DNA of 35,691 nt from an uncultured Eubacteriales bacterium (GTDB lineage: Bacteria > Bacillota > Clostridia > Christensenellales > Aristaeellaceae), in assembly GCA_902799045.1 (NCBI GenBank), contig CADBZH010000013.1, forward strand, positions 1-35,691, written 5' to 3'. Every line of letters starts with the position of its first letter. Position 1 is the stretch's first letter. The translations under genes were made by a program, and so were the position numbers. Below are positions 7,711-25,639 of this stretch, one piece after another. Under the pieces are notes generated by a model. The model searched no databases. It was not told the DNA's origin and worked only from the letters and a program-made list of their open reading frames with translations.

Positions 7711-7912
7711 GTCCGGTGGCAGACATCTGAGATAGCAGTCGCGCCGCTGCACATCCGTGAAGGCGCAACCAGCCCGCGCGAATCCTTCGGATTCCAGCGC
7801 GGCGCTGCCGGCGACCCGCTTGCGCGGACGCCGGTGCGTCAAACCATCTGAACAGTGACAACCTCGCCCGGCCTTACACCGGGCGGTTGTTGTAAAGGAG
7901 GAAGAAATACCC
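7711..7912 (+). other. Intergenic leader with stem-loops; no intact gene
   Basis: Two GC-rich hairpins are visible: 7774-7802 (CCGCGC/GAATCC arms, 3-nt loop, 2-nt bulge) and 7862-7888 (CGCCCGG paired with CCGGGCG, extended by ACAACC with GGTTGT and one bulge). Neither has a strong U-tract. The second lies 5 nt before a strong AAAGGAGG ribosome site (7894-7901), so it looks like the leader of a gene whose body has been lost. Confidence 0.45.
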
Positions 7913-8029
7913 ATGAAGAAAATGATTTCAAGCGGCGTTCACCGGCGGGATCGGCGGCGGGAGCGCTTCGCGGGGCCACCCCGACTCGGAGCGCCGCCCT
8001 GGCGATGGCAGGCGTCGCACAGCGCGTAG
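7913..8029 (+). pseudogene. 5' relic of a lost gene (first 4-5 codons with strong ribosome site)
   Basis: A strong AAAGGAGG and the start MKKMI are followed at once by the repeat 7926-7948 and then by the reverse complement of the helicase C-terminus. The frame ends at TAG (8027-8029) after 38 codons, nearly all antisense to the helicase. Only the first few codons can belong to the original gene. This shows a junction where a plus-strand gene was cut off next to the repeat. Confidence 0.5.
7926..7948. repeat. 23-nt copy of the 4701-4723 repeat
   Basis: The 23 nt are identical to 4701-4723. Here the left arm of the palindrome is missing and replaced by the gene relic at 7913. The repeat supplies the helicase's last two arginine codons in part and its stop codon (TGA at 7941-7939). 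Confidence 0.65.
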
Positions 8030-10501: not shown

Positions 10502-10549
10502 AATGCCAGTTATATCTTATAAACCGGTTATATGGGAGCACGGAACGCG

Positions 10550-11611
10550 ATGTACACCAGGGAACAGCTCACAAAATACACCTATTTCGACGAGACGCTC
10601 GGCAGACGGGACGTCTCCTTTGTGCTGGACCCGCTCACCGGGCTCGTCGCCCGGCAGTACATCCTGGGCTTTGTGAAGTCGCTCATCGAGTCGGGCACGC
10701 CCTTCACCTTCGGCATGCTGGACCTGGACAACTTCAAGTTCGTCAACGACGCCTACGGCCACCACGCCGGCGACCAGGTGCTGATGCACGTGGGCAAGAC
10801 CCTGTCCGACAGCCTGGACGGTCTGGGCATCGCGGGGCGCTTCGGCGGCGACGAGCTGCTGTGGGTGAACCTTCGGGACCTGGAATACGCGGACAAGAAG
10901 GCGTTCCTCAACGAGCTGTACACCGAGCGGCGGGTGCTGCGCATCAACATCCCGCTGGACGGTTGCTCGCCCTTCGTCACCGGCACCATCGGCTGCGCCA
11001 CCTTCCCCACCGACGCCGGGGACTATGAGGGCCTGTTCGCCACGATCGACAAGACCCTCTATCGCGGCAAGACCAAGGGCCGAAACTGCTACATCATCTA
11101 CGTCAAGGAAAAGCACGCCGACATCGAGATCCGCCAGATCGCCCGCAAGGGCATCGCCACCTTCATGTGCAACGTGGTGCGCCTGTTTGAGCTCGCGCCG
11201 GGGCTGAAGAACAAGCTCTGCTCCGCCGCACCGGTGCTGATCGACGAGCTGCGCCTGACGGACCTGTACTACGTGGGCGAGAGCCGCGTGATGCGGGCCA
11301 TCCGCGCCCAGGGCGTGGAGGAGCGGGTGGACGACATCGACAACCTGATGAACGACGAGATATTGGCCACCAACGAGCCGGAGCGCATCGAGGCCCGCTG
11401 CCCGGTGTTTTACGGGGTGTTGAAGAAGCGGGAGGTCGAGACGCTGATGGTGGTGCGCATCGGCATGGACAACGCGCCGACGAACGGCTATCTCCTGTGC
11501 GCGGAGCCTCACAGCCGCCGCATCTGGCAGGAGGAGGAGTGCGCCGTGTTGTTCTTCCTGGCGAAGATGATCGCCGCGCGGATCCGAATCGACGGCGAAG
11601 CGCTGGAATAA
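10550..11611 (+). CDS. GGDEF-domain protein (probable diguanylate cyclase) with C-terminal GAF-like domain
   Basis: A 353-residue soluble protein. ATG at 10550 is favoured over ATG at 10532 because GGGAG lies 11 nt before it. About residues 25-180 form a GGDEF domain: DPLTG, the metal-binding segment DLDNFKFVNDAYGHHAGD, and the active-site loop FGGDELL, where the usual final Phe is Leu; the catalytic Asp-Glu are kept, so activity making cyclic di-GMP is likely. No RxxD inhibitory site is seen at the usual spacing. The C-terminal ~160 residues look like a GAF-type sensory fold but match weakly, and their position after GGDEF is less common. There is no membrane segment. It is monocistronic, with a clear promoter and terminator. 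No partner EAL or HD-GYP gene is in the window. Confidence 0.87.
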   Translation: MYTREQLTKYTYFDETLGRRDVSFVLDPLTGLVARQYILGFVKSLIESGTPFTFGMLDLDNFKFVNDAYGHHAGDQVLMHVGKTLSDSLDGLGIAGRFGGDELLWVNLRDLEYADKKAFLNELYTERRVLRINIPLDGCSPFVTGTIGCATFPTDAGDYEGLFATIDKTLYRGKTKGRNCYIIYVKEKHADIEIRQIARKGIATFMCNVVRLFELAPGLKNKLCSAAPVLIDELRLTDLYYVGESRVMRAIRAQGVEERVDDIDNLMNDEILATNEPERIEARCPVFYGVLKKREVETLMVVRIGMDNAPTNGYLLCAEPHSRRIWQEEECAVLFFLAKMIAARIRIDGEALE

Positions 11612-11614
11612 CCC

Positions 11615-11653
11615 AAAACAGACCGAAGTCTAAACAAACTTCGGTCTGTTTTT
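11615..11653 (+). terminator. Rho-independent terminator of the GGDEF gene
   Basis: AAAACAGACCGAAGT and ACTTCGGTCTGTTTT form a 15-bp perfect stem around an 8-nt loop, and the right arm runs into a T-tract. It starts 4 nt after the stop codon. It separates this gene from the promoter of the pectin operon. Confidence 0.92.
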
Positions 11654-11685
11654 ACTTAATTTCCTTTAACCGACTCGACAAAATA

Positions 11686-11719
11686 TTGACACATCATTCA
11701 TAGGATGTTATAATCCTAT
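11686..11719 (+). promoter_or_regulatory. Consensus promoter of the pectin operon with an overlapping palindromic operator
   Basis: TTGACA (11686-11691) and TATAAT (11709-11714) with a 17-nt spacer are a perfect sigma-A promoter, 80 nt before the TTG start at 11794. A perfect inverted repeat, ATAGGAT (11700-11706) and ATCCTAT (11713-11719), straddles the -10 box and is placed where a repressor would block initiation. No regulator gene lies next to the operon, so the binding protein is unknown. I see no clear CcpA cre site here. Confidence 0.85.
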
Positions 11720-11793
11720 TGTCATATTGGACTTATTAATTGCCGTCTTGCGACAATTTTCGTGAATATCTGGTTTCACCTGGAGGTGGGCGC

Positions 11794-12387
11794 TTGAGGG
11801 GACAGCGGACGGTTGGGCAGTACCGGTGGATGGACCTGGCGATGTTCGCCGTCATGCTGGCGATATTCGAGACGCTGGTGGTCGTCGCCGCCCGCAAATG
11901 GTTTCCCAACGAGCCCTACACCGTTTCGGTGACGCCCGCGATCACCGCCATCGTGATGATGCGCTGGGGGCCCTGGGCGGGGCTGCACGCCCTGCTCGGC
12001 GGCGCGGTGTTCTGCCGCGCCAGCGGAGCCGGAATCCCCCACTACGCCATCTATTGCATCGGAAATCTCTTCAGCCTGGCCGCGTGGCCGGTGCTTAAAA
12101 AGCTCACCCCGGAGGGCGTGCGCGAAAGCGTGACGAAATCGCTGGGGCTGGCCCTGGGCGTGACGCTTTTGATGCAGCTGGGGCGGGCGCTGGTCTCGCT
12201 GGCGTTCAAGACGCCCCCGGCCCTGGCGCTGGGCTTTTTCACCACGGACGCGATCACGCTGCTGTTCACGCTTGTGCTGATCTGGATCGTTCGCCGGCTG
12301 GACGGCATGTTTGAGGAACAGAATCACTACCTGCAAAGGCTTCACGCGCAGGAAGAAGAGGAAAGAGGAGGATTTTATGAGAGATAA
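11794..12387 (+). CDS. Small multi-spanning membrane protein, first gene of the pectin operon (ECF S-component-like)
   Basis: A 197-residue protein read from TTG at 11794, which has GGAGG 7 nt upstream; an earlier TTG at 11740 has none. Five or six hydrophobic segments span about residues 13-170, then an acidic, charged cytoplasmic tail. The segment RWGPWAGLHALLGGAVFC looks like the conserved stretch of ECF-transporter S components or related small integral proteins, a resemblance only. Its end overlaps the LplB-type permease gene by 11 nt, which indicates translational coupling. Being promoter-proximal in a sugar-uptake operon suggests a role in transport or membrane sensing of the substrate; the function is not known. 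Confidence 0.75.
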   Translation: MRGQRTVGQYRWMDLAMFAVMLAIFETLVVVAARKWFPNEPYTVSVTPAITAIVMMRWGPWAGLHALLGGAVFCRASGAGIPHYAIYCIGNLFSLAAWPVLKKLTPEGVRESVTKSLGLALGVTLLMQLGRALVSLAFKTPPALALGFFTTDAITLLFTLVLIWIVRRLDGMFEEQNHYLQRLHAQEEEERGGFYER

Positions 12388-13435
12388 GGGAGCGGATTAT
12401 CTGATTTACGATCAGGCCAGCGGCACTTATCGCGAAAGCCCCGAACAAGTGGTGCGCGACGATGTGGAAAAGCACTACTGGCTGCACGTGGGCCGCACGA
12501 TCCTCAAGGACTGGCGTCTGTACGTGATGCTGCTGCCCACGATCCTGGTCTTCCTGTTCTGGCGCTACCTGCCCATGTACGAGTTGCTGGGCGCGTTCAA
12601 GGTGGGCGACCAGGTGAAGAGCGTGTCCGAGCAGTATTTCGCGGGCTTTTCCTATTTCAAGACCCTGCTGGTCGGCGGCGGCACCGGCGGCTTGTCCATG
12701 GAGTTCTGGCGGGCCCTGCGCAACACGTTCCTGCTGAGCTTCTACGGCCTGCTGTTCGGCTTCCCGATGCCGATCATCCTGGCGCTGTTCTTCAATGAAG
12801 TGCGCTCGAACCTCGCGCGCAGCGTCTATCAGGTGCTCACCTACCTGCCCAAGTTCATGTCCACCGTCGTCATGACGTCGCTGGTGATGATGCTGGTGAA
12901 GCAGGGCTCGCTGACCAGCGGCGCGGGCATCGTCTCCCGCTTCCTGGCGCGCATCGGCCTGATCACCGACGAGATGGCCAACGCCGGCCTTCTGAACAAC
13001 CCCAGCTTCTTCCGCGGCATCTATCAGATCAGCGGCATCTGGGAGACGGCGGGCTACGACAGCATCGTTTTCTTCGCGGCGATCATCGCCATCTCCCCCA
13101 CCAGCTACGAGGCGGCGCAGATCGACGGCGCGGGCAAGATGGCCCAGATGCGCTACGTGGTGCTGCCCAGCATCCTCTCCACGATCGTCATCATGCTCAT
13201 CATGCGCATCGGCTCGCTGCTGAACATCGGCTATGAGAAGGTGCTGCTGCTGTACAACAACAATACCTACGTGACCGCCGACGTGGTTTCCACCTTCGCC
13301 CAGCGCTACGGCCTGGCGGGCGCCCAGAAGGGCATCGCCTCCGCGGCGGAGATGATGAACAACGTGGTGGGCATGCTGCTGGTCATCGGCGCGAACACGG
13401 TCGCCCGCAAGGCGAGCAACGTGTCGCTTTATTAA
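12377..13435 (+). CDS. lplB: LplB-type sugar ABC transporter permease
   Basis: A 352-residue CUT1-family inner subunit. ATG at 12377 is preceded by AGAGGAGGA. A cytoplasmic N-terminus of about 50 residues leads into the first helix (YVMLLPTILVFLFWRYLPMYELLGAF, in two parts), followed by a BPD_transp_1 domain with about six helices. The EAA loop that docks on the ATPase is visible as SYEAAQIDGAGKMAQMRYVV. LplB/YtcP proteins import oligosaccharides, and in Bacillus the lpl and yte/ytc systems take up pectin fragments. It pairs with the next gene; both are followed by their binding protein. The EAA loop should contact one of the two ATPases in this operon, and which one cannot be told from sequence. 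Confidence 0.93.
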   Translation: MRDKGADYLIYDQASGTYRESPEQVVRDDVEKHYWLHVGRTILKDWRLYVMLLPTILVFLFWRYLPMYELLGAFKVGDQVKSVSEQYFAGFSYFKTLLVGGGTGGLSMEFWRALRNTFLLSFYGLLFGFPMPIILALFFNEVRSNLARSVYQVLTYLPKFMSTVVMTSLVMMLVKQGSLTSGAGIVSRFLARIGLITDEMANAGLLNNPSFFRGIYQISGIWETAGYDSIVFFAAIIAISPTSYEAAQIDGAGKMAQMRYVVLPSILSTIVIMLIMRIGSLLNIGYEKVLLLYNNNTYVTADVVSTFAQRYGLAGAQKGIASAAEMMNNVVGMLLVIGANTVARKASNVSLY

Positions 13436-13448
13436 GGGGGGTCGATCC

Positions 13449-14339
13449 ATGAAAAGAAAGCTTGAAGCCTCCGAACTGATCTTCAAGATCATCAGCTACA
13501 CGCTTTTGACGGTGTTCGCCCTGGGCTGCCTCTATCCGTTCGTCTACGCCATCTCGGCCTCCATCTCCGGCCGGCACGCGGTGGACTACGGCGAGGTGGT
13601 GCTCTTCCCGAAGGACGTGCAGTTCGACGCCTTCCGAAGGATGTTCAACGACAACATGTTCTGGAATTCCTATTCCAACACGCTGTTTTTAACGGTCTAC
13701 GGCACGGTGTGGGCGCTGGGCGTGGCCATCCTGGGCGCCTACGCCCTCAGCAAGAAGCGCCTGCTGTTCCGCAAGTTCTTCAACTTTTACCTGGTGTTCA
13801 CCATGTGGTTCTCCGCGGGCATCGTGCCCCAGTACCTGAACTACCTGGCCACCAAGAAGGTGTTCAATGGCATCGGCATCATGGACGACAAGTGGCTGGT
13901 CGTCATCGCGATGGGCATGGCCGCCATGAACATCATCCTGCTGCGCAACGCCTTTGAAAACGTGCCCAGCGAGATCGAGGAGGCCGCCATCGTGGACGGC
14001 GCGACGGAGTTCGGCGTGCTGAGCAAGGTGTTCATCCCGATGAGCAAATCCACCATCGCGACGGTGGCGCTGTTCTTCGCCATCTCCCGCTGGAACGGCT
14101 ATTTCTGGGCACGCCAGATGATCTCCAACGCCCACGAGCATCCCCTGCAGGTGTTCATACGATTGACGCTGGAGGATTACACGAACTCGGAGACCATGGC
14201 GGGCTGGAACGAGGTGTATGCCTCGGATTCTGTCATCTACGCGCTGATCGTGTGCTCCATCGTGCCGATCCTGATCATCTACCCGTTTATTCAGAAGTAC
14301 TTCGCCAAAGGCACAAACGCCGGCGGTGTGAAGGAATAA
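13449..14339 (+). CDS. ytcP: YtcP-type sugar ABC transporter permease
   Basis: A 296-residue CUT1 permease of the MalG/YtcP group, expected to form the membrane channel with the preceding LplB-type subunit. ATG at 13449 follows GGGGGG with a short spacer. The first helix (ISYTLLTVFALGCLYPFVYA) is followed by the family's characteristic periplasmic segment with Ser-Ala-Ser-Ile-Ser, then five more helices. The EAA loop reads EIEEAAIVDGATEFGVLSKV. The gene lies 13 nt after lplB and 19 nt before the binding-protein start, as in most CUT1 operons. Confidence 0.93.
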   Translation: MKRKLEASELIFKIISYTLLTVFALGCLYPFVYAISASISGRHAVDYGEVVLFPKDVQFDAFRRMFNDNMFWNSYSNTLFLTVYGTVWALGVAILGAYALSKKRLLFRKFFNFYLVFTMWFSAGIVPQYLNYLATKKVFNGIGIMDDKWLVVIAMGMAAMNIILLRNAFENVPSEIEEAAIVDGATEFGVLSKVFIPMSKSTIATVALFFAISRWNGYFWARQMISNAHEHPLQVFIRLTLEDYTNSETMAGWNEVYASDSVIYALIVCSIVPILIIYPFIQKYFAKGTNAGGVKE

Positions 14340-14358
14340 TATGAAGGAGGAACCCCAC

Positions 14359-16413
14359 ATGAAGAAACTCTTGTCGATCCTGCTGGCCTGCGCGATGCTG
14401 CTGAGCTGCGCCGCGATGGCCGAGGGAACCGTGCTGCGCATGGCCACCGGCTACAACAGCACCAAGACCGGCATCGCCTTTGACGCCGAGACGGCGGGCA
14501 GCGGCGTGACGCTGGCCGACGGCAACACCTACAACACCGGCGACCTGAAGCCCACCTGGGTGGAAATGGAAAACATTCTGGGCGTCAAGTTCGAGGACAA
14601 GTACCAGGGCAACGGCGCCGCGAAGGAGTTCGAGTTCTGGAAGGATCGCCTGAACGAGGTCGACATGATCAGCGGCACCGCCGCCACGCTGTCTGAGTAC
14701 GGCGAGGCCGGCAGCCTGGTCAACCTGGCCGAGTACCTGGACCAGATGCCCAACTTCAAGGCCTATCTGGAAGCCAACCCGATCGTGCGCCTGTCCATCA
14801 CGGGCAACACCTCCACCGGCGCGATCTACTTCAGCCCCTACTTCGACGGCGTCAACGACATCGAGCGCATGCCCCTCATGCGCGCGGACTGGGTCGTGAA
14901 GCTGCTGGACGGCGAGGGTGAGTTCACCGCCGACGCCTGCAACGACCTTGCGCCCGTGGTCTACGAGCCCTACATGCCCGTCGGCGGCTCCATCGATATC
15001 GAGACCGTGACCCTGGACGGCACCGGCACCGAGACCGTCACCAAGAACTACGACGCCTTCGGCAATGTCGTGGCCATCATGAACGACGCGGGCCCGCTGA
15101 CCGGCGTGGACGCCGTGAACCTGCTGCGCGACTACATCGACGCGGCTTACGGCGGCTATTACGGCACCGAGCGCTCCAACCTGTTCATCGGCCAGAACGC
15201 CGCGTGGGACGCCGACGAGATGGTCGCCCTGCTGCGCTGCGTGGTCGCCAACCCGCAGACCCTCAACGGCACCGATTCCGTGCAGGGCCTGTTCACCCGC
15301 GAGGAGAACAACAACCAGCGCCGCGTGGATATGATCCGCCTGGCCGGCCACCTGTTCGGCGTGCGCGGCATGGAGTCCCGCCAGGACTACCTGTATGTCG
15401 GCGCTGACGGCGAGCTGCACGACGCCCGCCAGGATGTCGCCGCCTACGAGGCCATGGGCCGCATGCACGACATGGCCCAGGAGGGCCTGATCTCCAAGGC
15501 GTTCATGGACGCCTCCGAGGAGAACAGCGGCACCTACCTGGAGAACGACATGGGCTTCATGTCCTATGACTACAACCAGACCCAGACCATCATGAACGCC
15601 ACCAAGCTGCAGGACGGCGAGAAGTACATGGCCGTGATGGTGCCCGTGGCGCGCTGGTATGACGGCACCGACGAGAACGGCGTCTACATGCGCTTCACCG
15701 AGTCCTGGCGTTCCGTCAAGACCGACGGCTGGGCCATCTCCAAGGCCGGCGTTGAAGGCGACGAAGCGAAGCTGAACGCCGCCCTGGCGCTGATCGACTA
15801 CGCCTTCTCTGAGAAGGGCCAGATCCTGATGAGCTACGGCCCCGACGCCTTCATCAAGACCAAGGACGACGGCTCCTACGAGACCTTCACCTTCAACGGC
15901 AAGGAGATGCCCGTCATCGCCGACGCCACCTATGAAGAGCTGTGGGAGAAGGCCAGCGGCAACTACACCAACTACGCCCGCATGTACCTGGGCTCCACCC
16001 TGTCCTTCGCCAAGAGCCAGGCCTTCGAGTATCAGTGCACCCACGAGGTCGGCAAGGAAGGCGCGGGCCACATCTCCGTGGCCATCGGCCTGGGCACCAT
16101 CAAGCATCCGGAGCTGGCTCTGGCCGAGAATCCCTGGTACACCTCCGTGCCCACCGTGCTGCCCAACACCAAGGTGGAAAACGACGAGCTGAACAGCTAC
16201 ACCGAGCTGACCGCCAACGGCAAGTTCGGCTTGGCCCGCGATGGCGAAAACGCCTTTGTGAACATCATCGTGAACGGCTTCACCCTGGACGGCATGACCA
16301 GCCCTGAAGAGGCGGCTGAGACCGTGGACGGCGCCTGGTACGGCTTCGACTACCTGCTGCTGAAGGGCGACGCCTGGACCCGCCTGCTGGACTACTACGT
16401 CAGCCTGAGCTGA
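14359..16413 (+). CDS. Large extracellular sugar-binding protein (LplA-like, family 1)
   Basis: A 684-residue exported protein. ATG at 14359 is chosen because AAGGAGG lies just upstream; the frame opens at 14341. The signal peptide MKKLLSILLACAMLLSCA has LLSC, which could be a lipobox, but AMA followed by EG is also a good signal peptidase I site, so lipid anchoring is uncertain. The rest looks like a family-1 solute-binding protein of the LplA/YtcQ kind; at 684 residues it is longer than the usual ~500-550, possibly because it binds a larger oligosaccharide. It follows the two permeases and is the presumed substrate receptor. A very stable stem-loop follows the stop (16428-16460), which may protect the upstream message and lift binding-protein levels over the downstream genes. 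Confidence 0.9.
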   Translation: MKKLLSILLACAMLLSCAAMAEGTVLRMATGYNSTKTGIAFDAETAGSGVTLADGNTYNTGDLKPTWVEMENILGVKFEDKYQGNGAAKEFEFWKDRLNEVDMISGTAATLSEYGEAGSLVNLAEYLDQMPNFKAYLEANPIVRLSITGNTSTGAIYFSPYFDGVNDIERMPLMRADWVVKLLDGEGEFTADACNDLAPVVYEPYMPVGGSIDIETVTLDGTGTETVTKNYDAFGNVVAIMNDAGPLTGVDAVNLLRDYIDAAYGGYYGTERSNLFIGQNAAWDADEMVALLRCVVANPQTLNGTDSVQGLFTREENNNQRRVDMIRLAGHLFGVRGMESRQDYLYVGADGELHDARQDVAAYEAMGRMHDMAQEGLISKAFMDASEENSGTYLENDMGFMSYDYNQTQTIMNATKLQDGEKYMAVMVPVARWYDGTDENGVYMRFTESWRSVKTDGWAISKAGVEGDEAKLNAALALIDYAFSEKGQILMSYGPDAFIKTKDDGSYETFTFNGKEMPVIADATYEELWEKASGNYTNYARMYLGSTLSFAKSQAFEYQCTHEVGKEGAGHISVAIGLGTIKHPELALAENPWYTSVPTVLPNTKVENDELNSYTELTANGKFGLARDGENAFVNIIVNGFTLDGMTSPEEAAETVDGAWYGFDYLLLKGDAWTRLLDYYVSLS

Positions 16414-16427
16414 TCGATTGACCTATT

Positions 16428-16460
16428 CGCTCCCCTCCCGCCGGGAGGCGGGAGGGGGCG
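16428..16460 (+). promoter_or_regulatory. Strong GC stem-loop inside the operon, after the binding-protein gene
   Basis: CGCTCCCCTCCCGCC pairs with GGCGGGAGGGGGCG (one bulge, 4-nt loop). It lies between the binding-protein stop and the next start at 16494 and lacks a T-tract, so it is more likely an mRNA-stability or partial-attenuation hairpin than a full terminator. Similar hairpins after malE-type genes set the excess of binding protein over membrane subunits. Confidence 0.65.
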
Positions 16461-16493
16461 CCTTACCTTAGTTAGGATCGGGGGAAGTTCGAC

Positions 16494-17084
16494 ATGTATA
16501 AGAAACAGATGAAGCTGCAGCGCATCGCGTGCTTTCTGTGCATCGCGGCCGGCGCGCTGGTATTTTTGTACGTGCTGGGCATGATGACGGACCTGTACGA
16601 CATGCTGTATACCATGGTCCCCGTGCCCGACGACCCGTCCTCGGTCAAGGTGGCCGGCGCCATGATCTACTATGACATGCAGGGCTTCAACCGCACGTTC
16701 CTGCGGGTGTCGATCGGGCTGCTGCTGGCGGCCTGCCTGCTGTTCGTCACCAACACCCATACCCGAAGGAAATACTATATCGGCAACTATTGCGCGATCG
16801 GCCTGAACGCCGTCGCCAACGTCGCCGCGGCCGTCTGGGCCCACGGCCAGATCGCGGCCTTCAAGACCCAGTATCTCACCACCGTGGATTTTGAACAGCT
16901 GGAGCGCCGCCTCTCGAGGGCGGGCACCTACACCGATTCAACCTTCTGGTTCGACGCCCACCTGGGCGTGTTCGCCGTATCGCTGCTGGCGGTGGCGCTG
17001 CTCGTGGCCTGCGCGATATGGAAGCAGTCGCTGATGAAGAATGAAAGTAAGCTGATTGAAGCTGGAAAGGCGGCGAAAGCATGA
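16494..17084 (+). CDS. Small four-helix membrane protein A of the transporter operon
   Basis: A 196-residue protein of unknown family. Predicted membrane segments lie at about 11-31, 70-88, 94-118 and 156-176. The loop between TM1 and TM2 (about 32-69) contains many acidic, aromatic and Pro residues, and the TM3-TM4 loop (about 120-155) is also polar. The C-terminus is Lys/Glu-rich. ATG at 16494 has a GGGGGAAG ribosome site. The stop overlaps the next gene's start (ATGA at 17081), so the two products are probably made in step and may form a complex. The setting, between the binding protein and a UgpC-type ATPase, suggests a transport accessory role; I know no function. Confidence 0.8.
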   Translation: MYKKQMKLQRIACFLCIAAGALVFLYVLGMMTDLYDMLYTMVPVPDDPSSVKVAGAMIYYDMQGFNRTFLRVSIGLLLAACLLFVTNTHTRRKYYIGNYCAIGLNAVANVAAAVWAHGQIAAFKTQYLTTVDFEQLERRLSRAGTYTDSTFWFDAHLGVFAVSLLAVALLVACAIWKQSLMKNESKLIEAGKAAKA

Positions 17085-17566
17085 TGAATGAACAATCCGT
17101 CCGGCTCGACCGCATGCGCTTTACAAAGAACACCACGTCCTCGCGCCTTGCGATCCTGGCCATTGTGTTCGACGTGCTCTACTTTGTCAGCCTCTATAAA
17201 ATCAACGTCGATTATTACTACACCCTCATCATGGGCGCCTCGATCCTCTACAACCTGGTGTTCATGCTGGCGGCCTTCCTGTCCAGCGAGGGTGTGAAGA
17301 ACTATAAACAGAGCTACTCCTGGGTGCTCTGCGTCCTCGGAATCATCCAGATCGCGAGGATCTTCATATTGCCCGTGCCCGCCCACGCCACGACGCTGAC
17401 GGTCGGCGGCGCGGAGCTGCTGGCCATGAGCGACGGGCAGTTTGTCCGGGTGATCGTGTATCTCGCCGGGTCGGCGGCGTGCCTGTTCGCGGCGGCGGCG
17501 GTAAACCTGGTCAAGAGCCGCGCCCTGAAGGCGCATATCGCGAGTCTTGAAGGCCAGCAGGCATAA
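17081..17566 (+). CDS. Small four-helix membrane protein B of the transporter operon
   Basis: A 161-residue protein with four predicted helices at about 18-37, 44-66, 78-99 and 125-147 and short loops. The start ATG at 17081 overlaps the stop of protein A. A charged N-terminus (RLDRMRFTKN) suggests a cytoplasmic start. I recognise no domain. It precedes the first ATPase by 12 nt. Together with protein A it forms the first of two small membrane-protein pairs that flank that ATPase. Confidence 0.8.
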   Translation: MMNEQSVRLDRMRFTKNTTSSRLAILAIVFDVLYFVSLYKINVDYYYTLIMGASILYNLVFMLAAFLSSEGVKNYKQSYSWVLCVLGIIQIARIFILPVPAHATTLTVGGAELLAMSDGQFVRVIVYLAGSAACLFAAAAVNLVKSRALKAHIASLEGQQA

Positions 17567-17578
17567 GGAGGGCGCACG

Positions 17579-18652
17579 ATGGCAGAGCTGAGTTTACATC
17601 ACATCGATAAAATATACGACAACAACGTCCAGGCGGTATACGACTTCAATATCGATATCAGGGACGGCGAGCTGATCGTGCTGGTCGGGCCTTCGGGCTG
17701 CGGCAAGTCCACCACGCTGCGCATGGTGGCGGGCCTGGAGGACATCTCAAACGGCCAGCTGCTGCTGGACGGGCGGGACATCACCCGCGTGCCGGCCAAG
17801 GACCGCGACATGGCCATGGTCTTTCAGAACTACGCCCTCTACGGCCACATGACCATCTATGAGAACATGGCGTTTTCGCTGGTGCTGCGCAAGGAGGATC
17901 CGAACGTCATCCACAAGAAGGTGCTGGCCGCGGCGGAGATCCTGGGGCTGACCAGCCAGCTGAACAAGAAGCCCGCGCAGCTCTCCGGCGGCCAGCGCCA
18001 GCGCGTGGCCATGGGGCGCTCGATCGTGCGCAACCCGAAGGTCTTCCTGTTCGACGAGCCGCTTTCCAACCTGGACGCCAAGCTGCGCGGCGCGACGAGG
18101 CGCGAGATCCTGCTGCTGCACAAGCGGCTGAACGCCACGATGATGTACGTCACCCACGACCAGACCGAGGCGCTGACGCTGGCGGACCGCATCGTGTGCA
18201 TGTCCATGGGCCACGTGCAGCAGATCGGCACGCCGCTGGAGCTGTACGATTCCCCGAACAACACGTTCGTGGCCGGCTTCATCGGGCTTCCGCCGATGAA
18301 CTTCTTCGACGTGGTCTTTGAAAACGGCGCGCTGCGGGGCAAGGGCTTTGAGGTCAGCCTGTCCGACGCGGAAAAGGCCGCCCTGGCCGATTACAACCGC
18401 AAGGAGATCATCCTGGGCGTGCGTCCCGAAGACATCGCCGAGGGCGGCGATTTGCCCGTGAAGGTGTTCTCCAATGAAAACCTGGGCATGAACACGCTGG
18501 TGCACGGCCGCATGGGCGACGGCCTGCGGGTCAGCGCAAAGCTGCGCGGCTGGAGCGACTACAAGGCCGGCGACGTCGTGTCGCTGGGCTTCACGCGCAA
18601 GCACTTCTTCGACAAGGAAACCACCAACGCCATCCGGAAAGGGGATCGATGA
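17579..18652 (+). CDS. UgpC/MsmK-type sugar ABC transporter ATPase, first copy
   Basis: A 357-residue CUT1-type ATPase. ATG at 17579 follows AAGGAGGGC. Walker A is GPSGCGKST (37-45), the Q-loop is MVFQNYALYGHMT, the signature is LSGGQRQRVAMG, Walker B is VFLFDEPLSNLDAK, and the switch His lies in VTHDQTEA. The C-terminal third is the OB/TOBE-type regulatory domain (LGVRPEDIA). The Q-loop has GHM where most relatives, including the second copy, have PxM; this segment contacts the EAA loop of the permease. In this family a homodimer powers import and one ATPase often serves several transporters. Finding two distinct copies in one operon is unusual. It lies between two pairs of small membrane proteins. 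Confidence 0.95.
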   Translation: MAELSLHHIDKIYDNNVQAVYDFNIDIRDGELIVLVGPSGCGKSTTLRMVAGLEDISNGQLLLDGRDITRVPAKDRDMAMVFQNYALYGHMTIYENMAFSLVLRKEDPNVIHKKVLAAAEILGLTSQLNKKPAQLSGGQRQRVAMGRSIVRNPKVFLFDEPLSNLDAKLRGATRREILLLHKRLNATMMYVTHDQTEALTLADRIVCMSMGHVQQIGTPLELYDSPNNTFVAGFIGLPPMNFFDVVFENGALRGKGFEVSLSDAEKAALADYNRKEIILGVRPEDIAEGGDLPVKVFSNENLGMNTLVHGRMGDGLRVSAKLRGWSDYKAGDVVSLGFTRKHFFDKETTNAIRKGDR

Positions 18653-18655
18653 GTC

Positions 18656-19219
18656 ATGGCAAGCCAGCCCAAGGGCATTAAGGAATTCCTCCGCAAGCGC
18701 GTGGTGGCGCTGAAGCGCAAGCCCCAGACCATCGCCCTCGTCGCGTTCGCGCTGGCGTTCGTCTATTATTCGCTGAACCTGACGAAGATCTCGGACACCA
18801 CGGCCTACATCAACCTGCCGGGCATGGGCCTGGCGGGCTTCGCCACGATGCTGTTTTCCATACTGCTGATGGTCTGCTTCATGAACGCCTTCCCCCATCG
18901 CAAGAAGGTGAACGTGCCGATGCTGGCGCTGATGTTCGTGCTGGTGGGCATCATCATCTATGCCGGGATCTACTATCAGGGCCGCATCACCGAGGCGCTG
19001 ACCCGCGAGGTGAACCCGATCACCGTCAGTGCCGACAAGAGCTACATCAACGCGGCCATGCGGATGCTGTCCGTCCATCGCATCCTGCTGATCGTCGGCA
19101 CCGCGCTGGTCATCACGCTGCCGGTGTACTCCAGGCTGCTGAAGAAGATCAACACCAACGTGGACGTGGCCGACAACGGCGGCATGGAAGCCATCGACAT
19201 CAGCGGCGAGGACGCCTGA
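18656..19219 (+). CDS. Small four-helix membrane protein C of the transporter operon
   Basis: A 187-residue protein with a basic N-terminus (RKRVVALKRKPQ) and helices at about 25-42, 59-80, 88-108 and 141-162. The TM3-TM4 loop (about 109-140) is polar, and the tail is acidic (NTNVDVADNGGMEAIDISGED). ATG at 18656 lies 3 nt after the ATPase stop and has AAAGGGG 11 nt upstream. No family is recognised. It is the first of the second small membrane-protein pair. Confidence 0.8.
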   Translation: MASQPKGIKEFLRKRVVALKRKPQTIALVAFALAFVYYSLNLTKISDTTAYINLPGMGLAGFATMLFSILLMVCFMNAFPHRKKVNVPMLALMFVLVGIIIYAGIYYQGRITEALTREVNPITVSADKSYINAAMRMLSVHRILLIVGTALVITLPVYSRLLKKINTNVDVADNGGMEAIDISGEDA

Positions 19220-19231
19220 CGCCCGATCATC

Positions 19232-19870
19232 ATGGCTCGCAACAAGAAAACCCCGCCGCGGGAGGCGCCAAAATCCACCGCCGATTATTATAAGCTGAAC
19301 GTCAAGGCCGTGGAGGACCTGGTGAACGCGGACGCCTCCAACTCCCCGAAGGTCAGTGAAGCGGAGCTGCGCCGGTACCGCTCCGGCCCGAAGGTCAGGC
19401 TTTCGGACGCGGTGAAGGCGCTGCTGATCAAGTTCTGGTTCGCCGGGGCGACCTGCTTCTTCTTCCTGTGGGGCCTGGGCACCTATCTGAACCACTGGCT
19501 GGATCAGATGGTGGTGCTGGGGCTGGCGCTGGGCGCGGTGACGGATCTGCTGACCAACAACCTCTTCCGCTTCATGGCCAAGAGCCCCGGCGCGAACGAT
19601 CGCTGGATGATGTTCCCCGGGAAGGGCTTTTACACGCTGCCGCTGAACCTGCTCTACGCGTTTTTGCTGCTGTTCCTGGTGGTGACGACCTACAACGTCG
19701 TCAACGCGGCGATCCTGGGCCTCGGCATGGCCGAAGGCGGCACGCCGCTGGGCGTGGGGCCGATCCTGTTCGGCGTCTTCACCGCGGCGTGGGACACGCT
19801 GCTCATCCAAATCAAGCGCACGGCCCAAAGCGTCCTGTCGGATGCCAGGCGCCGCGCAAAGGGAGCCTGA
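19232..19870 (+). CDS. Small membrane protein D of the transporter operon, with cytoplasmic N-terminal segment
   Basis: A 212-residue protein. About residues 1-65 are polar and charged (YYKLNVKAVEDLV, then SEAELRRYRSG), probably cytoplasmic; three or four helices follow at about 69-87, 94-116, 136-162 and 170-190. The end is basic. The N-terminal segment looks like a conserved interaction motif, which would fit contact with the ATPase or another cytoplasmic partner; this is inference. The ribosome site is weak, consistent with coupling to gene C 12 nt upstream. The function is unknown. Confidence 0.78.
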   Translation: MARNKKTPPREAPKSTADYYKLNVKAVEDLVNADASNSPKVSEAELRRYRSGPKVRLSDAVKALLIKFWFAGATCFFFLWGLGTYLNHWLDQMVVLGLALGAVTDLLTNNLFRFMAKSPGANDRWMMFPGKGFYTLPLNLLYAFLLLFLVVTTYNVVNAAILGLGMAEGGTPLGVGPILFGVFTAAWDTLLIQIKRTAQSVLSDARRRAKGA

Positions 19871-19874
19871 ACCC

Positions 19875-21425
19875 GTGTTTCATTGCATTTACGTCGGCGC
19901 CACCTCCGCCTGCTTTGAGCTGGACAACCGCGCGCCGTTCCACTCCCCCGTTCCCTACGCCGTCAGCCTGGACGGCGAGGCCGTTCTGGAGGGAACGGAC
20001 AACGTGTTCTCGCTGTTCGGCCTGATTCCGGACCGTGAATACGCCATTTTTGTCCGCATGAACGGGGAAGAATCGACTCTCGCCCTCCGCACCCTGCCGG
20101 AGGCCTGCGCCGTCAGCGCAAGGGCTTTCGGCGCGGTCGGCGACGGCGAGACCGACGACACCGCGGCCCTCCAGCGGGCCATCGCGGCGCTGCCGGAAAA
20201 CGGTCGGCTCGTCGTGCCGGAGGGCGTCTACCTCACCGGCCCGCTGCTGCTCAAGAGCCATATGACGCTGGAATTGCGGGCCGGGGCGACGCTGCTGGGC
20301 CGGACGGACAAGGCCGCGTACCCGGTGCTTCCCGCCACGGCGAAGGATTTGGGCGGCGGCCATCCCGTGCACTTCAGCGCGTTCGAGGGCCTCGCGCGGG
20401 ACATGTACGCCTCGCTGATCACCGCCGAATACGCGCGGGACATCGCGATCATCGGCCCCGGCAAGCTGGACGGCAACGCCCTGAACGCCGACTGGTGGCA
20501 GACCTTCCAGAGCGATCCCGTGGCCCGGCCGCGGATGATGTTCCTGAACCGCTGCGAGGGCGTGACGATCCACGGCGTGTCCGTGGCCAACTCCCCCTCC
20601 TGGCACCTGCACCCCTACTACTGCAGGGACGTGGCGTTTTACGACGTGTCGGTCGCCGCGCCGAAGGACAGCCCGAACACCGACGCGCTGGACCCGGAGT
20701 GCTGCGACGGCGTGCAAATCATCGGCTGCCGCTTCTCCGTAGGCGACGATTGCATCGCCATCAAGTCCGGCAAGCTGGAGCTGTACAGAATGTGCCCCGC
20801 CACCGCCACGCGCCACACGATCCGCAACTGCCTGATGTCGTTCGGACACGGCGCGGTGACGCTGGGCAGCGAGATCTCCGGCGGCATTCGGGAGCTGTCC
20901 GTCAGCCAGTGCCTCTTCCGGCAGACGGACCGCGGGCTGCGCATCAAGACCCGCCGGGGCCGCGGGCAGAGCTGCGACATCGACGCGATCGAGTTTGACA
21001 ACATCCGCATGGAGGGCGTCGTGACCCCCATCGTGATGAACATGTGGTATCGCTGCGTGGACCCGGACGGCGATTCCGAGTACGTGCAGAGCCGCGCGCC
21101 GCTGCCGGTGGACGAGCGGACGCCCCGCCTGGGCCGCTTCCGGTTCGCGAACATGGAGTGCTTGGACGCCCAGGCCGCGGCCTGCTATTGCGACGGCCTG
21201 CCGGAACGCCCCATCGACGAGGTGACGTTTGAAAACGTGCGCGTCGCCTTCGCCAAGGACGCCAGGCCCGCGGTGCCCTCGATGTTCACCGGCGCGCCGG
21301 AGCGCTGCCGCCTGGGGCTGTACTTTGAAAACGTGCGCCGCGTGGTGCTGCGGAACGTCACCGTGGAAGGCCAGGCGGGCGAGCGCGTCGTCGCCAACAA
21401 CGTGGATGAGATCGTCTCGGAATGA
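19875..21425 (+). CDS. GH28 polygalacturonase-type hydrolase, cytoplasmic
   Basis: A 516-residue enzyme read from GTG at 19875, which has GGGAG 9 nt upstream; an ATG at 19842 overlaps the preceding gene and lacks a ribosome site. About residues 1-80 look like a small beta-sandwich (fibronectin-III-like) domain, as in exo-acting GH28 enzymes. The right-handed beta-helix follows from FGAVGDGETDDTAALQRAI. All GH28 catalytic groups are visible: N268-T269-D270, D291-D292 (GDD), H325 (GHG) and R356-I-K358. It should hydrolyse alpha-1,4-galacturonosyl (or rhamnogalacturonan) linkages with inversion. No signal peptide is present, so it most likely acts on imported oligosaccharides. It starts 5 nt after membrane protein D and lies 12 nt before the GH105 gene. 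Confidence 0.93.
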   Translation: MFHCIYVGATSACFELDNRAPFHSPVPYAVSLDGEAVLEGTDNVFSLFGLIPDREYAIFVRMNGEESTLALRTLPEACAVSARAFGAVGDGETDDTAALQRAIAALPENGRLVVPEGVYLTGPLLLKSHMTLELRAGATLLGRTDKAAYPVLPATAKDLGGGHPVHFSAFEGLARDMYASLITAEYARDIAIIGPGKLDGNALNADWWQTFQSDPVARPRMMFLNRCEGVTIHGVSVANSPSWHLHPYYCRDVAFYDVSVAAPKDSPNTDALDPECCDGVQIIGCRFSVGDDCIAIKSGKLELYRMCPATATRHTIRNCLMSFGHGAVTLGSEISGGIRELSVSQCLFRQTDRGLRIKTRRGRGQSCDIDAIEFDNIRMEGVVTPIVMNMWYRCVDPDGDSEYVQSRAPLPVDERTPRLGRFRFANMECLDAQAAACYCDGLPERPIDEVTFENVRVAFAKDARPAVPSMFTGAPERCRLGLYFENVRRVVLRNVTVEGQAGERVVANNVDEIVSE

Positions 21426-21437
21426 CGGAGGGAACCT

Positions 21438-22571
21438 ATGTACGAAGCCATCGACCGCTATGTGTTCAGCCTGATCGAGCGCTCCTCCCCCGAGCGCACC
21501 GCCTGGAACATCGAGAAGGCGCGGGAGGGCATCCCCACCAATTGGAATTACATCGACGGCTGCATGATCACGGCGCTGCTGGCCATGGCCGACATCTCTA
21601 AAGACGCGCGCTATTTCGACTTTGCCCGCCGATTCATCGACGCCTTCGTGGGCGGGGACGGCGCGGTGCGCACGTTCAAGCCGGAGAAGCACACGCTGGA
21701 CGACATCAACGAGGGGCGCGTGCTGTTCACGCTGTATGACCGCACGGGCGACGGAAAATACCGCCTCGCGGCGGACGCGCTGAAGCGGGCGCTGGACGCC
21801 CAGCCGCGCACACCGGAGGGCAGCTTCTGGCACAAGCAGATCTATCCCAACCAGGTCTGGCTGGACGGCATCTACATGGCCATGCCCTTCCTGGCCCTTT
21901 ATGAAGGCCACTTCGGAGGCGGCGACTATTCCGACATCCTGCGCCAGGTGCGCGTCGTGCGCGAGCATATGCGCGACGCGGCGACCGGCCTCTACTACCA
22001 CGGCTACGATGCCAGCCGCAAGGCCTTCTGGGCGAACGCGCAAACGGGCCTTTCCCGGAGCTTCTGGCTGCGCAGCATCGGCTGGTTCGCCGTGGCGCTG
22101 GCCGATCTGGTGGAGCTGGTGCCCGTCGACGCGGGCCGGGACGAGCTGACGGCCCTCTTGTCGGACCTGGCGGAAAGCGCCTGGCACTTCCACGATCCCA
22201 AGACGGGCTTGTACTGGCAGGTGCCCGATCGCCCCGGCGAGGCGGGCAACTACCTGGAATCCAGCGGCAGCGCCATGCTGGCCTACGCCATGCTGAAGGG
22301 CGCGCGGCTGGGGGCGCTGGCGCCGATCTGGGCCGAACGCGGCCAGCAGACCTTCGACGGCATCGTGAAGCACCGCCTCGCCATCGACGCGGACGGCCAA
22401 CTGAGCCTGAGCGGCATCTGCCTGGTGGCGGGCCTGGGGCCGGAGGACAATCGGCGCCGCGACGGCAGCTATGAGTATTACATCTCCGAACCCGTGGTGC
22501 AGAACGACGCCAAGGGCGTGGCGCCCTTCGTGCTGTGCTACACGGAAGTCAAGCGCCGCCAGAGCGCATAG
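21438..22571 (+). CDS. yteR: GH105 unsaturated rhamnogalacturonyl/galacturonyl hydrolase
   Basis: A 377-residue (alpha/alpha)6-barrel enzyme of the YteR/RhiN family. ATG at 21438 follows GGAGG. Family landmarks are in place: LDDINEG with Asp at 88-89, FWHKQ with His132, and WLDGIYM with D143, the position of the known catalytic Asp in Bacillus YteR. The enzyme hydrates the double bond of the unsaturated uronic acid left by pectate or rhamnogalacturonan lyases and so releases it. That implies that at least part of the imported substrate comes from lyase action outside the cell, though no lyase is in this window. No signal peptide is seen, in keeping with cytoplasmic action. Confidence 0.93.
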   Translation: MYEAIDRYVFSLIERSSPERTAWNIEKAREGIPTNWNYIDGCMITALLAMADISKDARYFDFARRFIDAFVGGDGAVRTFKPEKHTLDDINEGRVLFTLYDRTGDGKYRLAADALKRALDAQPRTPEGSFWHKQIYPNQVWLDGIYMAMPFLALYEGHFGGGDYSDILRQVRVVREHMRDAATGLYYHGYDASRKAFWANAQTGLSRSFWLRSIGWFAVALADLVELVPVDAGRDELTALLSDLAESAWHFHDPKTGLYWQVPDRPGEAGNYLESSGSAMLAYAMLKGARLGALAPIWAERGQQTFDGIVKHRLAIDADGQLSLSGICLVAGLGPEDNRRRDGSYEYYISEPVVQNDAKGVAPFVLCYTEVKRRQSA

Positions 22572-22616
22572 GAAACCTGGCAAGAACCATTGAGCAACAC
22601 GCAAGGAGGCGGCGGT

Positions 22617-23693
<1,077 letters not shown>

Positions 23694-23716
23694 GGGCTGA
23701 ATAACTGAATGGATTT

Positions 23717-23798
23717 GGATTGCCACGTCGGTCACGGCTTCGCCCTGACCTCCTCGCGATGCGGCGGGGAGAACCCCATGGGTTCGGCGTGGCAATCC
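23717..23798. repeat. Palindromic intergenic repeat inside the operon (family of 25817-25933)
   Basis: Perfect 11-bp arms GGATTGCCACG (23717-23727) and CGTGGCAATCC (23788-23798) enclose a GC-rich centre. It fills most of the gap between the second ATPase and the isomerase gene and would be transcribed as a hairpin. A related element with the same end motif lies after the operon at 25817-25933. Confidence 0.75.
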
Positions 23799-23849
23799 GC
23801 TGCCCTGGAAACGGATATTGGAACACGCGGAAATCGAAAGGATGATCCC

Positions 23850-24686
23850 ATGAACATCGGCATTCGCCTGCACGACACCGCGCCGGGCACCCTCGAGCAG
23901 CGGTTGGACTTCGCCCGGGCCCAGGGCTTCACCTGCGCCCACCTGGCGCTCTCCAAGGTGATGGACGGCTTCTCGATGGCGGACGCGCCGCGCCTGCTGG
24001 ACGACGATCTGGCCGGGCACGTCCGACACGCCTTTGAGGCGCGCGGCATGGGCTGCGCCGTGCTGGGCTGCTATCTGAAGCTGGCCACCCGGGACGAAGA
24101 GGCCCTGGAGCGCACCCGCGACATCTACCGCGCCCACCTGCGCTTCGCGACAAGGATCAGCGCGGGTGTGGTGGGCACCGAGACGCCTGCCGCGCCGGGC
24201 CTCGGCCTCGCGCCGGATTCCGAGGCGGCGTTTGAGTGCTTCCTGGACAGCGTCCGGCCTCTCGTCCGCTGCGCCGAGGAGGAGGGCGCGATCCTCGCCA
24301 TCGAGCCGGTGGCCTGCCACATCGTGAACACCCCCGAGCGGGCCGAGCGGATGCTGGAGGCGCTGGAATCCGAGCATGTGCGCGTCATACTGGACGCCGT
24401 GAACCTGCTGACCCGGGAGAATTGCAGACGCGCCGACGCCATCGTGGACGAGGCCATTCGCCGCCTGGGCGATCGCGTGAGCGTGCTGCACCTGAAGGAC
24501 TACACCGTCGATCCCGACGCCTTCATGACGAAGGCCTGCGCCTGCGGCACGGGGCGGATGCGCTACGACGCGCTGCTGGCCTTCGGCAAGGCCCGGGGGC
24601 TGCCCATGACGCTGGAGAACACAAAGCCGGACAACGCCGAAGCGGCGCGGCGATATCTCGAAAACCTTGCGGGAGGCGAAGCATGA
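23850..24686 (+). CDS. Sugar phosphate isomerase/epimerase (xylose-isomerase-like TIM barrel)
   Basis: A 278-residue AP-endonuclease-2/xylose-isomerase-like protein. ATG at 23850 has AAAGGA upstream. TIM-barrel hallmarks include the N-terminal strand MNIGIRLHD, metal-binding-type Glu in AILAIEPV, Asp in VRVILDAVNLL, His in VSVLHLKDY and a late Glu in PMTLENT. Such enzymes isomerise or epimerise free or phosphorylated sugars with a divalent metal; in a pectin operon galacturonate, rhamnose or their keto products are plausible, but the substrate is not set by sequence. The stop overlaps the pectinesterase start by 4 nt (ATGA at 24683), so the two are translationally coupled. Confidence 0.88.
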   Translation: MNIGIRLHDTAPGTLEQRLDFARAQGFTCAHLALSKVMDGFSMADAPRLLDDDLAGHVRHAFEARGMGCAVLGCYLKLATRDEEALERTRDIYRAHLRFATRISAGVVGTETPAAPGLGLAPDSEAAFECFLDSVRPLVRCAEEEGAILAIEPVACHIVNTPERAERMLEALESEHVRVILDAVNLLTRENCRRADAIVDEAIRRLGDRVSVLHLKDYTVDPDAFMTKACACGTGRMRYDALLAFGKARGLPMTLENTKPDNAEAARRYLENLAGGEA

Positions 24687-25639
24687 AGCATGTGATTGCG
24701 CCCAACGGCGGCGATTTTGCCACCATCCAGGCCGCGGTGGACGCCGCCGCGCCGGGAGACACCCTGCTGATCCGCCCCGGCACCTATGCCGAGCGGGTGG
24801 TGATCCATCGAAGCGGGCTGCGCCTCCTGGCCGAGGACGGCGCGGTGCTGACCGGGTCGGGCTGCGCGAAGGACCTCACCCCCGACGGCCGGGAGAAGGG
24901 CACGTTCCTCTCCGCCACGCTGCTGGTGCTGGGCGACGACGTGACCGTCGAGAACCTCACCGTGCGCAACGATGCCGGCGACGGGCGCGAGGTGGGCCAG
25001 GCCGTGGCCGTCTACGCCGCCGGCGACCGGGACGTCTGGCGAGGCTGCCGGTTTATCGCCCACCAGGACACGCTGTTCTGCGGGCCGGTGATGCTGAAGG
25101 TGCTGGCGGAGATCGCACCGCGGGGCCTGGAGAGCGTGGAATGCGTGCCCTCCGTCGGCGACTGCCCGCCCACCCGCTCCCGCCAGTATTTTGAAGGCTG
25201 CTTCATACAGGGCGATGTGGACTTCATATTCGGCCCCTATCGCTGCTGGTTCGAGGGCTGTACGCTGTTCATGAATGCCCGCGGCGGCTGGTACACCGCG
25301 GCCAACACGCCCGAAGCGCAGCCCTGGGGCCAGGTGTTTCACCGCTGCCGCCTGACCGGCGAGTGCGAGGAGGGCGCGGGCAAGCTGGGCCGGCCCTGGC
25401 GCGCCTTCGCGAGCACGCTGTTCCTCGCCTGCGACATGGACGCCCACGTCAGCCCCGCGGGCTTTGAGGACTGGCACAACTGGGACGGCGTGCGGGAGAT
25501 CACCAGGCGCTGCGGCGAATGGGGCACCACCGGCGCGAGACGCGACCTGTCCGTCCGGCATCCCAGGGCGCGCCGCCTGACCGAAGCCGAGGCCGCGGCG
25601 ATCACGCCCGAGGTTGTGCTGGAGGGATGGCGCCCCTGA
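24683..25639 (+). CDS. CE8 pectinesterase (pectin methylesterase), cytoplasmic, with insertion
   Basis: A 318-residue right-handed beta-helix esterase. It starts at the ATGA overlap (24683) with the isomerase gene. The CE8 active-site set is visible: Q106 (GQAVAV), Q128-D129 (HQDTL), D180 (VDFIFG), and R237 and W239 (GRPWR). It removes methyl groups from galacturonate carboxylates, releasing methanol. No signal peptide is present, which is unusual for this mostly secreted family and implies that methylated oligosaccharides enter the cell before de-esterification. The distance from D129 to D180 is about 51 residues against about 21 in typical members; the extra ~30 residues include several Cys and Pro and may reshape the cleft. 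It is the last gene of the operon. Confidence 0.93.
   Translation: MKHVIAPNGGDFATIQAAVDAAAPGDTLLIRPGTYAERVVIHRSGLRLLAEDGAVLTGSGCAKDLTPDGREKGTFLSATLLVLGDDVTVENLTVRNDAGDGREVGQAVAVYAAGDRDVWRGCRFIAHQDTLFCGPVMLKVLAEIAPRGLESVECVPSVGDCPPTRSRQYFEGCFIQGDVDFIFGPYRCWFEGCTLFMNARGGWYTAANTPEAQPWGQVFHRCRLTGECEEGAGKLGRPWRAFASTLFLACDMDAHVSPAGFEDWHNWDGVREITRRCGEWGTTGARRDLSVRHPRARRLTEAEAAAITPEVVLEGWRP

Follow-up and report, generated by a model that had tools for sequence, protein, structure and literature searches.

Five unnamed membrane proteins encoded with a CUT1 importer in a clostridial pectin operon: probable auxiliary subunits of an enlarged transporter

This report concerns an operon for pectin use at positions 11,794 to 25,639 of a 35,691-nucleotide stretch of DNA from an uncultured Eubacteriales bacterium (contig CADBZH010000013.1, assembly GCA_902799045.1); the whole stretch is called the window below. 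Next to the genes of a carbohydrate importer of the CUT1 class of ATP-binding cassette (ABC) transporters, the operon encodes five small membrane proteins, named here A, B, C, D and E0. With a probability of roughly 0.62, these proteins belong, as auxiliary membrane subunits, to an enlarged importer of the CUT1 (type I) kind that is driven by the ATPase N1, an association that we infer from the fixed gene order, the mutual presence of C and the LplB permease, congruent trees and the restriction of the EAA motif to the permeases. The first-pass annotation of this DNA had proposed either such an accessory role or a separate membrane complex powered by the first ATPase; the former is now favoured and partly supported, and the latter is the less favoured alternative. 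The nine-gene block formed by these proteins and the importer is a real, conserved and unnamed extension of CUT1 importers.

A CUT1 importer is regarded as an assembly of a permease pair, an ATPase pair and a binding protein, the composition on which models from MalFGK2 to AlgM1M2SS are based. If the reading favoured here is true, new subunit families and an S-component fold would be added to this class of importers; to our knowledge, this would be the first case of such a fold in a sugar importer. The nine-gene version would provide a testable reason for the uptake of large pectin fragments by gut and rumen Clostridia, and the five protein families, now named, are open to knock-out and co-purification.

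The operon and its importer

Judged by its sequences, the transporter is a CUT1 importer, with two permeases carrying the EAA motif, a MalK-type ATPase with OB/TOBE domains and an extracytoplasmic solute-binding protein (SBP). Its most likely substrates are pectin-derived uronic oligosaccharides, as inferred from the neighbouring enzymes, which include glycoside hydrolases (GH). The open reading frames of the membrane proteins lie where they had been annotated, with the tight spacing claimed for them:

11794..12387, forward strand: E0, 197-residue membrane protein upstream of LplB, with a predicted S-component fold of energy-coupling factor (ECF) transporters (AlphaFold, Foldseek)
12377..13435 (about), forward strand: LplB-type CUT1 permease, extended at its N-terminus by roughly 30-45 residues (PF00528, AlgM1-like, EAA motif)
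13449..14339, forward strand: YtcP-type CUT1 permease (PF00528, EAA motif)
14341..16413, forward strand: SBP, large solute-binding protein of 690 residues (AlgQ1-like; no Pfam match)
16494..17084, forward strand: A, 196-residue four-helix membrane protein (open reading frame, hydropathy of homologues)
17081..17566, forward strand: B, 161-residue four-helix membrane protein (open reading frame, hydropathy of homologues)
17579..18652, forward strand: N1, ATPase of the UgpC/MalK type; OB/TOBE domains, Gly89 following the Q-loop (Pfam, NCBIfam, alignment)
18656..19219, forward strand: C, 187-residue four-helix membrane protein (hydropathy, AlphaFold)
19232..19870, forward strand: D, 212-residue four-helix membrane protein whose first 60 residues or so are cytoplasmic (hydropathy, AlphaFold)
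19842..21425, forward strand: GH28 pectinase-type hydrolase (PF00295), whose true start may follow the stop of D
21438..22571, forward strand: GH88/GH105-type unsaturated-uronyl hydrolase (PF07470)
22611..23693 (about), forward strand: N2, second UgpC-type ATPase, less tied to the core (Pfam, NCBIfam)
24683..25639, forward strand: pectinesterase, given as context (PF01095)

The frame listed for E0 opens at a TTG codon at 11740; the alignment of its homologues fits a start near 11794.

Recurrence and gene order of the block

The genomes sampled comprised 150 of the window's own family, 391 of its class, 151 of a second family (f4) and 398 of the phylum. C was present in 42 of the 150 family genomes, in 21 of the 151 f4 genomes (from 2 of 18 genera), in five of the 391 class genomes (the window's own, G465, G414, G341 and G334) and in a single genome of the phylum sample, again the window's own; a plasmid search for C gave no match. 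Two of these matches, in G118 of the family sample (E 8e-4) and in G334 (E 2e-5, inside a 588-residue frame), are judged spurious because no block is seen at the loci concerned, L124 and L035. A scan of genome contigs, in which the best 80 loci of 276 relatives were kept, led to metagenome-assembled genomes entitled Clostridia, Clostridiales, Oscillospiraceae, Ruminococcaceae or Lachnospiraceae, many of whose titles name ruminant gut sites.

With the short loci L001-L036 excluded from the statistics, the blocks containing C number 112 (106 distinct C proteins), and 111 of them follow the order E0-LplB-YtcP-SBP-A-B-N1-C-D; the one flagged block, L149, has a second SBP gene. At least 8.8 kb of upstream sequence was available for 84 blocks (81 distinct), and nine separate genes stand in order in 80 of the 81 distinct loci, so that the recurrence in other genomes sought at the outset is clearly present. 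The remaining locus, L122, carries A and B in one uninterrupted 354-residue frame (reverse strand, about 11074-12135) that may be a natural fusion or a sequencing indel and was not used as main evidence. The other 25 incomplete blocks all have less than 6.3 kb of upstream sequence. In f4, complete readings of 23 blocks (L117, L148-L167, L169 and L170) show the nine genes in order in every one.

The most divergent members give weight to this constancy. In G341, identity to the window falls to 26% for A, 34% for B, 33% for C, 31% for D and 30% for E0, with 72% for N1, 57% for LplB and 55% for YtcP among the conventional parts; a gene order kept at 26-34% identity is beyond chance. The A/B gap equals -4 in 50 of 69 loci, and B and N1 are separated by 11-18 nucleotides in 59 of 72. 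The earlier argument that tight spacing and overlaps mark real genes is thus upheld.

Several loci depart from a single simple copy. G567 has two divergent nine-gene blocks, L148 and L149; the extra SBP gene of the latter follows D, and no GH28 or GH105 gene is found there by the rule used. On contig C1 of G644, two equal-scoring copies (L169 and L170) lie about 20 kb apart, by duplication or assembly artefact. In L121, YtcP (3091-4614) and B (7416-8324) are each in two pieces, with insertion-like gaps of about 0.6 and 0.45 kb.

Co-occurrence and shared history with the permease

LplB orthologues in the family sample share 71-100% identity, the next best protein 47%. They occur in 37 of the 150 genomes, and 36 of these 37 also have C; the exception is G036, whose LplB gene is truncated by the contig end. 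Four LplB orthologues were found in the class sample (at least 60% identity, next 45%), and their genomes are the four credible C carriers. For the family sample, no more than 13 candidates were scored in each genome, and the assemblies are fragmented. Around the next-nearest LplB proteins, neither A-D nor E0 was detected by profile at any of 20 loci, over the printed stretch and with some cut by contig ends.

Tree distances were compared over 54 distinct loci with all eleven genes. Among the nine core genes they correlate with r of 0.72-0.91 (LplB-YtcP 0.87, YtcP-B 0.91, YtcP-D 0.89), and E0 follows the other core genes at 0.72-0.84. GH105, despite lying in the same operon, reaches only 0.39-0.53 against the core, and linkage alone therefore does not force congruence; N2, at 0.60-0.77, overlaps the low end of the core range. 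These comparisons support the inheritance of the nine genes as one unit.

The four-helix proteins A to D

As the first-pass annotation had held, the five proteins are uncharacterised: the window's E0, A, B, C and D match no Pfam or NCBIfam model above cut-off, and a match to some family of unrelated role did not come true. Homologues were scanned against Pfam for E0, D and A, and the window proteins only for B and C. Nothing convincing was found for 44 E0 and 49 D homologues, nor for 46 A homologues among the 25 listed of 72 weakly matched families. The D homologues gave single weak matches to FecCD (E 0.009) and BPD_transp_2 (E 0.015), and none of the window's A-D matches an ABC membrane family over the Pfam cut-off. 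Resemblances of C to EI24/CysZ (E 4e-4) or SecD/F (E 1.4e-4), and of A to SpoIIIAC (15 of 46 members, best E 0.0011), fall below curated cut-offs and were put down to membrane composition. Profile searches of the PDB returned no match for A and B, and nothing better than E 0.37 for C and D.

That A, B, C and D are diverged copies of one protein was likewise rejected: hhalign, run with shallow and then deeper alignments, gave at most 3.9% probability for any pair among A, B, C, D and E0, the positive control LplB versus YtcP reaching 93.1%. The B-C and A-C alignments fall near the diagonal, so that a shared fold is conceivable.

Each of A-D has four hydrophobic regions, judged by the mean hydropathy of its homologues, and both termini are placed inside by charge. 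The earlier description of two four-helix pairs flanking the UgpC-type ATPase N1 is thereby confirmed. In A, B and C, the cytoplasmic loop between transmembrane segments 2 and 3 (TM2-TM3) is the best conserved of each protein (0.75, 0.70 and 0.80), compared with 0.43-0.66 for the outside loops. An AlphaFold model of the C-stop-D reading as one chain (predicted local distance difference test, pLDDT, 87.8; predicted template modelling score, pTM, 0.71; disordered linker) has four long membrane-type helices in C and four in D. The individual folds are predicted with confidence. A C-D contact is suggested by the model, in which the pTM of 0.71 is not counted as proof of an interface because only 19 of the 75 alignment rows were paired, the others being single C or D rows. 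Foldseek searches with this model returned helical bundles and receptors, none clearly related.

The E0 protein

Among the five small membrane proteins listed at first, the 197-residue E0 needs to be set apart, since it has six helices, unlike the four-helix A-D. Its AlphaFold model, built from 72 sequences, reaches a pLDDT of 94.2 and a pTM of 0.89. The first eight Foldseek ranks are taken entirely by ECF S components (ThiT, the 5edl S component, RibU and a folate transporter chain), with probabilities of 0.95-1.00, TM scores by query length of 0.46-0.59 and E of 0.04-0.7; at rank 9 the probability drops to 0.21. At the sequence level, 44 E0 homologues matched 16 Pfam families that do not include those of S components, MreD appearing once (E 0.085), and the window's E0 matched no S-component family of NCBIfam. 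An alternative match to EMC4 (profile against the PDB, E 0.002) was discarded; the AlphaFold model gave it no support.

The fold is described for S components, MreD and 5TMR kinases, docking to the ECF module being attributed to an AxxxA motif in helix 1, which the sensor kinases and MreD lack (PMC11109136, Partipilo and Slotboom). In E0, this docking motif is not conserved: at the positions of the window's AxxxA, the first Ala is found in 64 of 84 sequences and the second in 20 of 84, and any AxxxA within helix 1 in 26 of 84. The main text of PMC11109136 does not contain the words 'carbohydrate', 'CUT1' or 'oligosaccharide'.

Permeases, ATPases and binding protein

Both LplB and YtcP contain PF00528 (BPD_transp_1), and the EAA motif is present in 83 of 83 LplB and 81 of 83 YtcP homologues. 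It was found in none of 94 A, 97 B, 106 C and 107 D proteins, nor in E0. The alignment of LplB to AlgM1 spans query residues 44-353 (E 4e-67). The first 30-45 residues or so of LplB constitute an extension, the matches to other CUT1 permeases starting mostly at query residues 30-52 and in a few cases earlier.

The window's SBP has no Pfam match and is distantly AlgQ1-like (E 9e-7). The binding proteins that accompany the block are large: 677-783 residues in 68 of 73 cases outside f4 (the other five being shorter), 707-964 in f4 and 679 in the divergent locus L183 described below, compared with 513-593 in relatives devoid of the block (12 scored, untruncated).

N1 and N2 both have ABC_tran, OB_MalK and TOBE_2 domains (Pfam), and many fixed positions distinguish them. 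The site directly following the Q-loop is Gly89 in 103 of 104 N1 sequences (Ala once) and Pro in 75 of 75 N2 sequences. As a control, 14 loci with other ATPases were fetched from three genomes; L231 gave no match, and position 89 is Pro in 12 of the other 13 and Gly in L223 (YALF type). This site adjoins the end of the F81-Y87 stretch of MalK, in which the coupling helix lies (PMC7658222). The Gly89 site suggests that N1 makes a specialised membrane contact, the sequence itself giving no indication of the partner. N1 also resembles the multitask ATPase MsmX in its contact region, where K74, D77, N84 and K154 are named (PMC7658222): K74 is kept in 103, N84 in 101 and K154 in 103 of 104 N1 sequences, and D77 is read in the window protein. 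N2 differs from MsmX at 74, 84 and 154.

Pectin enzymes and a divergent block

The enzymes downstream of the block are less constant than the block itself. By the rule used, 47 of 84 blocks have both GH28 and GH105, 25 GH105 only, 4 GH28 only and 8 neither; of these eight, four have less than 1 kb of downstream sequence and L123 has GH105 by tblastn. L150 (G591) and L121 (G099) show no GH28 or GH105 within about 9.7 kb downstream and may serve another substrate.

It had been asked whether the block recurs with or without pectin enzymes; there is one clear case without GH28 and GH105, the locus L183 (LplB 47%). Here A-, B-, C- and D-like genes surround one ATPase, a 655-residue protein with a DUF4962 match lies beside D, and neither E0 nor GH28/GH105 was seen. 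This single locus indicates that the A-B-ATPase-C-D arrangement is not bound to GH28/GH105, and that not every A-D block needs E0. Support by hhalign is high for A (97.5%), B (95.8%) and D (98.4%); for C it is 18.4%, suggestive only, and this gene was placed mainly by position and its four hydrophobic segments. With the L183 D protein as query, matches were obtained in 27 of 150 genomes including its own, the window's D among them. The ATPase has Gly at position 89 and Ser100 as in N1, with overall 48% to each of N1 and N2.

Other genes lie around the operon. A GGDEF-domain protein (10532-11611) is encoded directly upstream on the same strand, a GH4 gene (Pfam) is found in the neighbourhood on the opposite strand, and a histidine kinase with His_kinase and HATPase_c domains occupies 5109-6494 on the reverse strand. 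Histidine kinases of this type are often found near CUT1 operons.

An enlarged importer and its alternatives

In the favoured model, A-D would be four-helix subunits with both ends inside, packing beside LplB and YtcP, and their conserved cytoplasmic loops would touch N1 or the permease. They might form a collar or docking platform that braces the complex around its unusually large SBP, the size of the binding proteins being the reason why such a platform could be needed. E0 would act beside LplB as a membrane scaffold or substrate-sensing subunit, a role more likely than that of an ECF vitamin carrier for an S-component fold without a conserved docking motif. N1 would drive LplB and YtcP, and N2 would be a second, less tightly linked ATPase. 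In a bolder version, rather unlikely as a whole, the operon encodes a new class of composite importer, CUT1 machinery to which an A-D membrane collar and an S-component-fold subunit engaged in substrate handling have been added; one ATPase would then move two kinds of carrier, in a CUT1/ECF hybrid for large pectin fragments.

Several observations weigh against this model of auxiliary subunits. All loci were entered via C, and completeness given C is consequently better tested than necessity. Five C-carrying genomes of the family sample (G104, G111, G138, G141 and G142) gave no LplB orthologue among the candidates scored, at most 13 per genome, in fragmented assemblies; E0 was not seen in the L183 block, and tight linkage explains part of the tree congruence. 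The TM2-TM3 loop of D (0.59) is not outstanding, no Foldseek match of E0 has an E of 0.001 or less, and N2 correlates with N1, D and E0 at 0.75-0.77 as some core pairs do, so that the contrast between N1 and N2 is not sharp. Finally, related substrates are imported without A- to E0-like proteins in the systems as described in PMC5730181 and PMC5717064.

The main alternative is that A-D and N1 make up a membrane complex of their own, either ABC-type or mechanotransmission, with N2 powering LplB and YtcP. It is retained, as unlikely, because this second UgpC-type ATPase is near many blocks (most of those of the window's family and others examined), and it would agree with the invariable position of N1 between B and C, the conserved cytoplasmic loops of A-C and the divergence of N1 and N2 near the Q-loop. 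However, A-D have neither the EAA motif nor, in the window, a recognised ABC membrane family, and L183 has one ATPase only within its block. N2 lies within the fetched stretch of 4 of 23 f4 blocks, and in G341 some 15 kb separate it from the block; these findings make this two-ATPase explanation a little weaker without changing our estimate of it. N2 also tracks the permeases less closely (r 0.61 with LplB, 0.68 with YtcP) than N1 does (0.80 and 0.83). Also unlikely is a role of A-D and E0 in assembly, or as a sensor in the membrane for importer activity, instead of as permanent subunits: sensor kinases and MreD offer a precedent largely like E0, an S-component fold without AxxxA (PMC11109136), but five separate proteins in every complete locus would be much for a chaperone or a sensor, and the window's five proteins contain no signalling domain (Pfam).

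Two further explanations bear on parts of the set. E0 taken by itself could be an ordinary ECF S component that serves an unrelated nutrient through the shared ECF module of the genome. Its predicted fold would fit, as would the CbiQ/EcfT gene found over cut-off elsewhere in 12 of 12 genomes tested; the poorly kept second Ala and scarce helix-1 AxxxA, the position upstream of LplB in complete loci and a tree that follows the core make this quite improbable. For A-D, the location of the genes between importer and pectinase could reflect another membrane step of pectin use, such as enzyme anchoring or export, the operon being merely shared. This would be very surprising, given that GH28 and GH105 are not constant partners, L183 having another enzyme, and that the permease genes are constant.

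Comparison with known systems

Searches of open-access papers, a scope outside which subscription papers and preprints fall, listed no title or abstract opening that names such a block, which does not prove that none has been described. YesL/DUF624 proteins are small membrane proteins found near CUT1 genes of the LplB/YtcP type, and in this location they resemble the proteins described here. None of the window's five proteins matches DUF624 in Pfam at E up to 1, and the family is absent from the matches of E0 and D homologues and, for A homologues, from the 25 listed of 72 families. With the ECF S components (ThiT, RibU, FolT), MreD and the 5TMR kinases, E0 shares a predicted six-helix fold; it differs from the ECF S components by the lack of a sequence-family match, by an AxxxA that is not conserved and by being encoded with a CUT1 permease.

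A parallel for the substrate is the YtcQP-YteP system of B. subtilis with MsmX, which serves polygalacturonan/rhamnogalacturonan uptake and likewise combines a CUT1 permease pair, an SBP and a MalK-type ATPase with a pectin substrate (PMC5730181). By the description given there, this system has only two membrane proteins besides its SBP and the shared ATPase. The alginate importer of Sphingomonas sp. A1 (AlgM1-AlgM2/AlgS-AlgS with AlgQ) shares the likeness of LplB to AlgM1, a weak likeness of the SBP to AlgQ1 and the class of uronic-acid oligosaccharide substrates. As described in PMC5717064, it comprises a pair of permeases, a pair of ATPases and a binding protein; compared with it, the operon of the window encodes five more membrane proteins and an N-terminal extension of LplB.

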